DNA of 64,000 nucleotides from Erysipelothrix tonsillarum DSM 14972 (lineage in GTDB: Bacteria > Bacillota_I > Bacilli_A > Erysipelotrichales > Erysipelotrichaceae), in the NCBI RefSeq assembly GCF_000373785.1, contig NZ_KB892377.1, positions 584,934 through 648,933 of the forward strand, given 5' to 3'. Every line of letters starts with the position of its first letter. The stretch's first letter is position 1. Both the position numbers and the translations under genes were made by a program. Shown piece after piece: positions 45,380 through 49,325 of this stretch. The notes under the pieces are model-generated. The model was not told where the DNA came from and ran no database searches. It saw only the letters and a program-made list of their open reading frames with translations.

Positions 45380-45428
45380 ATTTTCCTCCTGTATAAAAAT
45401 AATAATACTCAAGGCAAACATGAAAAAA

Positions 45429-45534
45429 ACTTCTTCCATCCAGACTTTAACTGTCGCCACTCGAATTTAACGAGTTCAGCCTATTGGCTCGCGGGGTTTA
45501 CCGCCGATCGGGAATTACACCCTGCCCTGAAGTA
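45429..45534 (-). promoter_or_regulatory. FMN riboswitch (RFN element) controlling ribU
   Basis: The minus strand carries the conserved core: CTTCAGGGCAGGGTG at the 5' side, AATTCCC, CGGCGGTAA, GAGCC, AGGCTGA and 3' GCGACAGTTAAAGTCTGGAT, closed by a short P1 (ACTTC with GAAGT). P1 is followed at once by seven T (45428-45422). I find no separate terminator hairpin before the ribosome site. Confidence 0.95.
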
Positions 45535-45543
45535 TACATGAAT

Positions 45544-46207: not shown

Positions 46208-46543
46208 TTATTCCTCCATTTTAGTTAAGTTAAAACTTCCATCATCAATTATATCATAGGAGAACCGATATGACCTAACACCATTTACCAAAACATTAAT
46301 TTTTTCATCATTTTTTTGTGCAAACACCTCATATTTATCATCTTCATAGGTAAAATCTTCTTCCTCAAAACAAAAATGGTCAATAACAAGGCGTTCTAAT
46401 TCTATTCGTTCGTTAATATAAGCGAGTGTTTGAAGTTGACGTTGATACCGAACACGCATTAGGGCAACACGCGCCATGACCAGAAGCACGATAAAAAAAA
46501 CTAAATGCGTACATCCAACAATATTACCACGCCGAAAACTCAT
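46208..46543 (-). CDS. ComGG-like protein, last gene of the comG operon
   Basis: A 111-aa protein with a basic N-terminus (MSFRRGNIVG), one membrane segment (about 10-28) and a polar C-terminal domain. Position after comGF, size and layout match ComGG, a minor pseudopilin of the competence pilus that lacks a clear prepilin motif. Sequence similarity is too weak to call on its own. AAGGA precedes ATG 46543, which overlaps the comGF end by 20 bases. Confidence 0.65.
   Translation of the reverse strand: MSFRRGNIVGCTHLVFFIVLLVMARVALMRVRYQRQLQTLAYINERIELERLVIDHFCFEEEDFTYEDDKYEVFAQKNDEKINVLVNGVRSYRFSYDIIDDGSFNLTKMEE
46248..46256 (-). promoter_or_regulatory. Candidate extended -10 for efp
   Basis: TGATATAAT on the minus strand lies in the last codons of the ComGG-like gene, about 45-50 bases before the efp ATG. 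It would allow efp, a housekeeping gene, to be expressed apart from competence genes. Confidence 0.45.
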
Positions 46544-46895
46544 AGCTTTTTCCTTCAAAATCGTACTTCACCCAATTTCCATCACAACTAAAGTCCGTTA
46601 CATTATGCAGTAAAATTTCATATCCAGGACGTTTAACAATAAATCGGCCATTAAAACTAATTTCATTATTATGATTATTCTTTTCAAAATAAATACAGTT
46701 TTGTTCACAATAGACCCGTCTACTCCGTATTAAAAGTTGCTTCAACTGTAACTCAAAAATATTATTTTGTCGTAATACTGGTGTGGTTACCATCATGTGA
46801 TAACAATGTTCTAAGATGCCGCTTAAAAGAATAATAAGTAACGGCGTCAAAGCTAGGCATATCAAAAATTCAAGCAACGAGTAAGCTTTATGCAT
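46524..46895 (-). CDS. ComGF-like minor pseudopilin
   Basis: A 123-aa protein with prepilin-type N-terminus KAYSLLEFLICLAL (Glu at +5, Ala rather than Gly at -1), a membrane helix (about 6-27) and a C-terminal domain with FNGRFIVKRPGYEILLHNV, resembling ComGF. It should help build the pseudopilus that carries DNA through the wall. ATG 46895 lies inside the end of the micro-ORF upstream. A GTG at 46904 is an alternative, and neither has a good ribosome site, so coupling is likely. Confidence 0.75.
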   Translation of the reverse strand: MHKAYSLLEFLICLALTPLLIILLSGILEHCYHMMVTTPVLRQNNIFELQLKQLLIRSRRVYCEQNCIYFEKNNHNNEISFNGRFIVKRPGYEILLHNVTDFSCDGNWVKYDFEGKSYEFSAW

Positions 46896-46977
46896 TAAAT
46901 ACACATAATAAGTAAACCATCATTGTAATAATACAAAGACTGTACAAATATGTTATAAGTGTGAAGTGGTTACTCAC
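46888..46977 (-). CDS. 29-codon micro-ORF in the comGE position
   Basis: GTG 46977 overlaps the comGD stop (GTGAGTAA) and the frame runs 29 codons to TAA 46888, overlapping the comGF ATG by 8 bases. It encodes a hydrophobic peptide, MSNHFTLITYLYSLC followed by IITMMVYLLCVFNA, with FTLI as in prepilin N-termini and then one membrane helix. In Bacillus comGE (about 115 aa) sits exactly here. So this may be a reduced ComGE, or only a coupling ORF that carries ribosomes from comGD to comGF. Confidence 0.5.
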   Translation of the reverse strand: MSNHFTLITYLYSLCIITMMVYLLCVFNA

Positions 46978-47254
46978 ATCGATACCTCCCAAAACCTAAC
47001 TGTACTACACAGAGATAATGATCAATTTGAATCGTCCCACCTTTATTGATATTACCATTAGCATTAAACCACATGTTGGGTTTGATCATGACAGAAGTCA
47101 TCGATTCCATTGCACTGAGCTGATACTCCAATAAATTAGGTTCTTCTTTCATTTCTACACTATACGATAATGTTACTTTAGCAGAAACCCCAATAATCAA
47201 GATGATTATTAAAAACTCACAGAGCGTAAATGCTTGACTATACTGCTTGACCAT
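46970..47254 (-). CDS. ComGD-like minor pseudopilin
   Basis: A 94-aa protein with prepilin-like N-terminus QAFTLCEFLIIILIIG (Glu at +5, Ala at -1) and one membrane helix (about 9-30), followed by a short polar domain. ComGD of Bacillus is about 143 aa, so the C-terminal part is reduced. It overlaps comGC by 17 bases and the following micro-ORF by 8. Assignment rests on order and the N-terminal motif. Confidence 0.75.
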   Translation of the reverse strand: MVKQYSQAFTLCEFLIIILIIGVSAKVTLSYSVEMKEEPNLLEYQLSAMESMTSVMIKPNMWFNANGNINKGGTIQIDHYLCVVQLGFGRYRCE

Positions 47255-47525
47255 CGACGATTTGAATCACCTCTCCATTAAAACATTTCCCTTGGTTCTC
47301 TCGTAAATATCCATTCGCTATGAGTTGATCAATGCTCGTGGGTAAATTATCATAATTAATTTTATATTGCATTATTGCGGCATCCACAATTTTCTTTTGA
47401 GCCTCACATCCTTTATTGTTTACCATTGTTATTGTTTTTTGAATGTTTGGCAGCGTCAGCATAAATATGATGGCAATTATTGTCATTACTATCACCATCT
47501 CGATTAGTGTAAATCCTCGTTTCAT
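47238..47525 (-). CDS. comGC: Major competence pseudopilin ComGC
   Basis: Main subunit of the competence pilus. The 95-aa protein has the textbook prepilin motif KRGFTLIEMVIVMTIIAII (cleavage after Gly4, Glu at +5), a membrane helix and a C-terminal domain with two Cys (in KGCEAQKK and GKCFNGE) as in ComGC. TSIDQLIANGYL matches the family loop. It overlaps comGB by 4 bases. Confidence 0.93.
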   Translation of the reverse strand: MKRGFTLIEMVIVMTIIAIIFMLTLPNIQKTITMVNNKGCEAQKKIVDAAIMQYKINYDNLPTSIDQLIANGYLRENQGKCFNGEVIQIVDGQAV

Positions 47526-48496
47526 AAGCCCTCCATTAGTTTTAGTGGAATCATGATCAATTCATAATAAGACACCACAATCATAAGTATGTTCATGGTA
47601 ACAAAAACCCTATAACGGCAAAACCATTTTTTTAGCTCTGCTTGAATAAGAACATTCGCAATAGTAAGTCCTTTATCCAGTGATTGTTCTAAAGAATTCA
47701 TATAAAAACCCTCACGGAGATAATTCTGGAATGTTTGGTGCATAGACGACTGCTGTAGTACCTCTAAGATGTCTTCTCCATATTCAAGCCTTCGTTCTAT
47801 CTCAAAAGCGATTGAGCCTGCCAAGGTCCCTGTATGAGCCTTTCTCAAAGTTTTAATCGTCATCAGCGTGGTTTTGGTTTCCGGATAAAAATAACGATAA
47901 TAAAGCGCAAATTGCTCAGAAATGCAAAGATTCAAAAATTCACAATATTTATGCGTATACAAGTAAGCTGCAGTAACCATTCTTGTTTTTTTGTTTAGAA
48001 TTATAAACGAAAAACAAACTAACGCTATCAAACAACAAACATGGGTGATCACGATAAATTGAATGCATAGTTTCGAATACCATGAAACATTTAAACGCCC
48101 GTTTAGAATGATTACTTGATCCGTTATCGCAGGAAAAATAAGCCACTTGTAGAAAATCATCATCCCAATAACCATTAGATGAAGTAGAAACCAATAACCT
48201 ATCTCTTGACGCAAGGTCATAAACCGTCTTAGATTGTTTGACCTCACTTGTTGATATACGGTCAATAATGTTTGACCTGAAATTTTTGGATACAACGTGT
48301 AGAGTGTTTTCGGTAGCGTTACCTTTAAATACGTATCAAAGGAAAAATCTTGTAGATTAAGATAGTGATTAATTTCCTGAAAGGATAATCCATACCCTAA
48401 CAGGTTCAAAATTGCACCATCATCAAATATCCTCTTTGCATGTTTTTTGTTGTTGAGCAAGTAATTGAATGATTTGATTTTGCCCCATAAATTCAT
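47522..48496 (-). CDS. comGB: Competence pilus membrane protein ComGB
   Basis: GspF/PilC-type inner membrane platform of the pilus. From ATG 48496 (GGAGGGG 11 bases upstream) it is 324 aa with three or more membrane segments (about 110-130, 160-185 and near the C-terminus) and two repeated cytoplasmic halves, e.g. DDGAILNLLGYGLSFQEI and RRLEYGEDILEVLQQS. It overlaps comGA by 74 bases, an unusually long overlap. A later start is possible. Confidence 0.88.
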   Translation of the reverse strand: MNLWGKIKSFNYLLNNKKHAKRIFDDGAILNLLGYGLSFQEINHYLNLQDFSFDTYLKVTLPKTLYTLYPKISGQTLLTVYQQVRSNNLRRFMTLRQEIGYWFLLHLMVIGMMIFYKWLIFPAITDQVIILNGRLNVSWYSKLCIQFIVITHVCCLIALVCFSFIILNKKTRMVTAAYLYTHKYCEFLNLCISEQFALYYRYFYPETKTTLMTIKTLRKAHTGTLAGSIAFEIERRLEYGEDILEVLQQSSMHQTFQNYLREGFYMNSLEQSLDKGLTIANVLIQAELKKWFCRYRVFVTMNILMIVVSYYELIMIPLKLMEGL

Positions 48497-49325
48497 GTTG
48501 AAATAGAACCCCTCCCTTTGAACTATTGAGTTTATGATAAAGAATACCGACAAGACTTGATTCGATAGCATAGTGTGTCGCTCCTAAATCATAGAGGCGA
48601 TCAAGTGTTGACACTAAGCCTCGTGAATGGATGGTTGCACATACAAGATGACCCATATTAACCGCTTTGAGACATAACTGCAGGTCCATCTTAGTGCGTA
48701 CCTCACCATAAACGAGAACATCAGCATCCATACGAAGTAGCTGGTTCATAATGTCTTCATTACTTAATCGCTTTCTTATGGGCTCAAGTTGAACAACATG
48801 CTCATAATAACGTTCAATTGGATTCTCAATACTATAAATTGACTCCTGCTTTAATTCCTTCAATGTATTAAATAACGTGGTTGATTTTCCCGATCCTGTA
48901 CCTCCTGAATACAGAACCAGTCCAGAACTGCATTGAAAAACACTCAAAAGTGACTTTATAGTCCGTTTATTTCGGATACACTCAAAAATCGTATGAACTA
49001 ACACAATATTTAAAATGCGAACAACTCCATTTTTGCGACCAAAGGATTCAATCGCAGCAAAGCGAAAATAGTAATTACGCTCAAAGACCATCATAAATCG
49101 GCCTGTTTGTGGAACATCCTTTTGACTTAAGTCAAAATTAGCAATGAATTTTAAATGTTCATACATATTGGTTGCCATTACATTGTGAATGGTTTCTATC
49201 GTTTTTTTATGTCTTCGAAATCGAATCACTTGAAAGGTATTTGAAATATCAAAGTGAATATCAGTAATTGATAATGAAATTGCATATTCAAGTAAGTCAT
49301 GAGTTTTTTTATCTATATATTCCAT
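48423..49325 (-). CDS. comGA: Competence pilus assembly ATPase ComGA
   Basis: Traffic ATPase (GspE/PilB family) that powers assembly of the DNA-uptake pseudopilus. The 300-aa protein has Walker A YSGGTGSGKSTT (about 139-150), the Asp box, Walker B region DADVLVYGEVRT and the His box CATIHSRG. It is short (Bacillus 356 aa), lacking part of the N-terminal domain and the C-terminal zinc motif. The ATG has no clear ribosome site and sits 34 bases after the preceding gene's stop, just past a terminator. No ComK box is evident. Confidence 0.9.
   Translation of the reverse strand: MEYIDKKTHDLLEYAISLSITDIHFDISNTFQVIRFRRHKKTIETIHNVMATNMYEHLKFIANFDLSQKDVPQTGRFMMVFERNYYFRFAAIESFGRKNGVVRILNIVLVHTIFECIRNKRTIKSLLSVFQCSSGLVLYSGGTGSGKSTTLFNTLKELKQESIYSIENPIERYYEHVVQLEPIRKRLSNEDIMNQLLRMDADVLVYGEVRTKMDLQLCLKAVNMGHLVCATIHSRGLVSTLDRLYDLGATHYAIESSLVGILYHKLNSSKGGVLFQHEFMGQNQIIQLLAQQQKTCKEDI

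Follow-up and report, generated by a model that had tools for sequence, protein, structure and literature searches.

The window, a stretch of 64,000 nucleotides from the genome of Erysipelothrix tonsillarum DSM 14972, carries on its minus strand a comG operon in the order comGA, comGB, comGC, comGD, a 29-codon ORF, comGF and a comGG-like ORF, followed by efp. The features are as follows:

48423..49325, minus strand: comGA, assembly ATPase (T2SSE, E 1.8e-46; NF041000, E 3.7e-48)
47522..48571, minus strand: comGB, platform protein, with a putative start codon (NF041012, E 1.2e-06, under cut-off)
47238..47525, minus strand: comGC, major pilin, with the canonical KRGFTLIE motif (NF040999, 82.5 bits, over cut-off)
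46970..47254, minus strand: comGD, minor pilin of 94 aa with a reduced head (NF040982, E 5.5e-07, under the curated cut-off)
46985..46990, minus strand: GGGAGG, Shine-Dalgarno-like, 7 nt 5' of the GTG of the next feature and within comGD Gly-Arg codons
46888..46977, minus strand: helix-only comGE, 29 codons with a GTG start, overlapping the comGD stop and the comGF start, with in-frame relatives in 20 other species
46524..46895, minus strand: comGF, minor pilin of 123 aa from the ATG with a full beta-sheet head (NF041002, E 1.3e-08, under cut-off)
46208..46558, minus strand: comGG candidate, 116 aa, placed by position only, overlapping the comGF end
46205-45648, minus strand: efp (elongation factor P), directly after comGG

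Among these genes comGC alone exceeds its curated cut-off, and comGA, comGB, comGD and comGF are recognised only below theirs. The comGG-like ORF had no family match in profile searches. The comGF gene ends at 46524 and may start at ATG 46895 or GTG 46904. The comGG-efp order recurs in several members of the family. Also on the minus strand, an FMN riboswitch (window 45424-45538; Rfam RF00050, 104 bits) lies 5' of a RibU-like transporter gene (about 45380-44852).

The short ORF between comGD and comGF runs on the minus strand from GTG 46977 to TAA 46888 and encodes the 29-aa peptide VSNHFTLITYLYSLCIITMMVYLLCVFNA. It shares 8 nt with comGD (GTGAGTAA) and 8 nt with comGF (ATGCATAA), the latter counted from the conserved comGF ATG at 46895; the preliminary description of a GTG-started 29-codon ORF overlapping both neighbours was therefore right in its coordinates and its wording. 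In relatives, the bases upstream of the start read GGAAGG or GGGAGG in several cases and the weaker GGACGG in others. The overlap with both neighbours and the good Shine-Dalgarno-like site 5' of the GTG are what one would expect of a coupling ORF, whose sole job is the passage of ribosomes from comGD to comGF and whose peptide sequence is irrelevant.

The relatives speak to this alternative. ComGD homologues were found in 11 other Erysipelothrix species (they were absent from one incomplete genome) and in two further genera, and the helix-only set comprises 21 operons, 12 from Erysipelothrix, window included, and nine from five neighbouring genera. The comGE frame is open over the whole comGD-comGF interval in all 21 operons, so none of these operons carries a frame-breaking change, and each of the other two forward frames is open in none; base shuffling gives an open frame a chance of 0.03-0.13 per species, values that were not multiplied, the species being non-independent. 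The encoded peptides are prepilin-like helices of 29-38 residues, 24-34 of which follow the cleavage position. Between sister species (L003 against L004 and L005), pN/pS is 0.16 in the comGE frame (8 synonymous and 6 non-synonymous changes, 22 codons, P about 0.001), compared with 0.56-2.2 in the other frames and 0.20-0.27 in comGD and comGF of the same pairs. Constraint is weaker between the window copy and its sisters (pN/pS 0.39-0.48), and the L008/L009 comparison lies near 1 on few changes. The micro-ORF is a real coding sequence, and conservation at the amino-acid level, which the preliminary description had proposed to look for, takes the form of purifying selection between sister species. 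A pure coupling function, also raised there, is very unlikely: what is conserved is the amino-acid sequence, beyond a mere open frame, the prepilin motif and hydrophobic helix keep their register, and sister genera encode longer versions.

One pair shows a pattern of its own. L004 and L005 differ in comGE by 0 synonymous and 2 non-synonymous changes in 22 codons, and more than half of the synonymous sites in their flanking comGD and comGF have changed, which may reflect either local recombination or an extra constraint at the nucleotide level.

The consensus of the clade is KGFxLIExLxxLxILxxMV (n=21 taxa), with Gly at -1 in 17 of the 21 and Glu at +5 in 19. In every taxon the ORF stops at the helix or just past it, leaving no C-terminal soluble domain. 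Longer ComGE proteins with the same slot and start motif are encoded at about 80 other loci of the family, at 30 in the sister family and also by other families within the class. Measured from the helix start, these longer proteins have about 41-81 aa in the family; most in the sister family have 46-67, and those elsewhere in the class about 54-110. Between the comGD stop and the comGF helix lie 72-111 nt in the helix-only operons, and a median of 164 nt in the other members of the family. On a tree of ComGC, ComGD and ComGF, all 20 placed helix-only rows group in one clade (SH-aLRT 96), and a single change accounts for the trait; this tree of 104 rows, from which ComGE was left out, comes from a short search and has some long branches (L096 above all), and the border of the clade could move. 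Because there is one helix-only clade, with longer ComGE in the rest of the family, the order and the class, ComGE lost its C-terminal part once. Judged by its place in the comG operon, between comGD and comGF, and by its descent from the longer ComGE of relatives (one length change on the tree, shared slot and motif), the ORF is comGE, truncated in the common ancestor of Erysipelothrix and the five neighbouring genera. ComGD is shorter too in the helix-only clade, at about 88-106 aa from the helix start; elsewhere in the family it can have as many as 125 aa, and in other families it has about 125-150.

The name comGE rests on position and phylogeny, since the residue weights of the helix do not separate ComGE from ComGF: a position-weight comparison with ComGC, ComGD, ComGE and ComGF (n=21) gave 12 to ComGF, 8 to ComGE and 1 to ComGD. 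The slight preference for ComGF in 12/21 would suit a duplicate of the comGF or comGD helix that replaced comGE. We hold this to be highly improbable, as all other family members encode, in this very slot, a longer ComGE that starts in the same way, and the residue at +2 is mostly hydrophobic, a feature shared with ComGE but not with ComGC or ComGD. The idea of a minimal ComGE, put forward in the preliminary description, is thus strengthened by the same position and frame, by a complete motif in most relatives and intermediate lengths in sister genera, and by the single origin and purifying selection seen here.

We also searched for another comGE. In the window's genome the NCBIfam ComGE model NF041013 matched only comGC; a full comGE elsewhere, named at the outset as an observation that would speak against a minimal ComGE, was not found by this search. 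The same model had no match to the 29-aa peptide, and it is insensitive here, because no genome of the order has a match over its cut-off. The operon itself has no room for a gene encoding a separate ComGE head, and none was seen there.

The window copy is the most degenerate of the 21. According to a review (PMC10191384), the residue that closes the leader peptide is invariably Gly or Ala, and Glu5 is frequent, not universal. At -1, in place of the Gly or Ala of a class III signal peptide, the window copy has His and its three sisters in a four-species subclade have Cys, Cys and Phe; at +5, the window copy has Thr in place of the usual, though not universal, Glu. A hydrophobic helix of 20-25 residues does follow the leader. 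The earlier reading of the peptide as FTLI plus one helix therefore stands as described, but two prepilin hallmarks are absent from it, with His before the F and Thr as residue 5. In the same subclade, residue -1 of ComGD is Ala, Arg, Asn and Asn, and comGC retains its Gly; the window ComGD has the Ala and keeps Glu5. The comGF of one sister genome (L004, G009) is frameshifted at an A-run, so that the protein ends about 69 residues past the helix start, owing either to a sequencing error or to real decay.

Because Gly/Ala(-1) is lost in the subclade and Glu5 in the window species, the usual processing of ComGE probably does not take place there. The -1 residues of comGE and ComGD and the comGF frameshift in one sister suggest that, atop the older truncation, the subclade has relaxed processing rules or is in early decay. 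The truncated comGE might even be a relic there, no longer working and surviving only through its overlaps with comGD and comGF; the loss of both hallmarks in the window copy, the Arg or Asn at -1 in ComGD of sister species, the frameshifted comGF and the long branch of the subclade on the ComGC, ComGD and ComGF tree are all in its favour. We nevertheless consider such decay unlikely, and at most recent and local, given a frame that all 21 taxa have kept open since a single old event, a motif that is intact in most of them and a pN/pS of 0.16 between two sisters that is comparable to that of comGD and comGF. Judging from its residues, ComGE in the window's species and subclade may instead be a helix scaffold under relaxed constraint.

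The rest of the uptake machine is encoded as well. Prepilin peptidase genes are present in all 13 genomes of the genus. In the window's genome, a peptidase of 235 aa (G000:C1:489179 region, L202) is followed by TadE-like proteins and belongs to a Tad/Flp pilus cluster. A second one, of 137 aa, comprises the catalytic part only (G000:C1:710152-710445, L209); this second match was seen only in the window's four-species subclade, and the protein may be a minimal ComC. Pfam PF03772 detected ComEC in 0/13 genomes of the genus, though nearly all sister-family genomes match, and misses nearly every genome of the family (G000:C1:97498-98205 in the window's genome; L214, L215). A divergent ComEC query from the family matched in 13/13, and the reading that the system lacks ComEC and hence is not one for transformation was rejected; the miss was an artefact of the Pfam model's limited sensitivity. 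ComEC of the family has about 580-644 aa and its gene adjoins holA where examined. Competence surveys relying on PF03772 would score ComEC as absent in Erysipelotrichaceae. AlphaFold2 predicts a complete beta-sheet head for ComGF (pLDDT 89; a helix at 7-36 and 8 strands), and a smaller head is kept in the predicted ComGD (pLDDT 74). Foldseek found no significant match in the PDB to the ComGF model.

In Streptococcus, the tip complex consists of four minor pilins, ordered ComGD-GF-GE-GG, with ComGE between ComGF and ComGG (PMC10790768). ComGE surface mutants transform normally, and DNA is bound by ComGD and ComGF (PMC12153270). In pneumococcus, ComGE E5A nearly abolishes pilus formation, from which its authors infer reliance on the N-terminal helix, and the soluble domain binds partners (PMC8727766). 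Helix-only ComGE, having no soluble domain, cannot make these contacts. It would be expected if the ComGE head were dispensable. A tip-helix role of the peptide fits the published data by analogy, and the surface mutants, the E5A phenotype and the tip order lead us to regard it as likely that this minor pilin bridges ComGF and ComGG at the pilus tip as a helix adaptor. Against such an adaptor stand the missing contacts of the soluble domain and the window copy, which is without Gly/Ala(-1) and Glu5, while pneumococcal ComGE E5A is close to null. We infer that helix-only ComGE is translated, inserted, processed and assembled. Translation would proceed by re-initiation or overlap after comGD, the peptide, a bare alpha1N helix, would insert in the membrane and fill the ComGE slot of the ComGD-ComGF-ComGE-ComGG tip-initiation complex, helix-helix packing between ComGF and ComGG would hold it there, and the ComGD and ComGF heads would do the DNA binding.

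The GspI and PilI minor pseudopilins have globular heads, unlike helix-only ComGE, and resemble it in position. In the H-J-I-K complex, they occupy the homologous place at the tip (PMC10790768). ComGE of Streptococcus and Bacillus competence pili (NF041013) shares with it the slot between comGD and comGF, the N-terminal prepilin helix (in most clade members) and the presumed tip complex, but has a soluble domain (pneumococcal constructs extend to residue 86, PMC8727766), which the Erysipelothrix clade lacks. The shortened ComGE of other Erysipelotrichaceae and of the sister family occupies the same slot with the motif GF[LI]L[IM][ED], but has 15-45 more residues after the helix, such as EISTQWFYSD tails. 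Headless pilins are already known: Geobacter PilA-N (61 aa mature, PMC6201914) is likewise scarcely more than alpha1, but it is a major pilin of about twice the length, and its head is made as a separate protein (PMC10191384). Helix-only ComGE is far shorter than 61 residues. Our literature search found no paper naming both comGE and Erysipelothrix.

An annotation in which comGE is missing can mean a comGE too short to call; full-length comGE is also unannotated in S. pneumoniae R6 (PMC8727766). How minor pilins initiate the tip is one of the open questions in the assembly of type IV filaments. Because it has no head, helix-only ComGE challenges the proposal that the machinery grips the pilin just below the head (PMC10191384). 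Published mutants suggest that ComGE works mainly via its N-terminal helix, and the helix-only lineage is a natural test of this; retention in 21/21 operons suggests that the helix is the part of ComGE that matters. On balance, we favour the view that a bare alpha1N helix of 24-34 residues is a working, conserved tip component across six genera, and that the ComGE position would need only a membrane helix.
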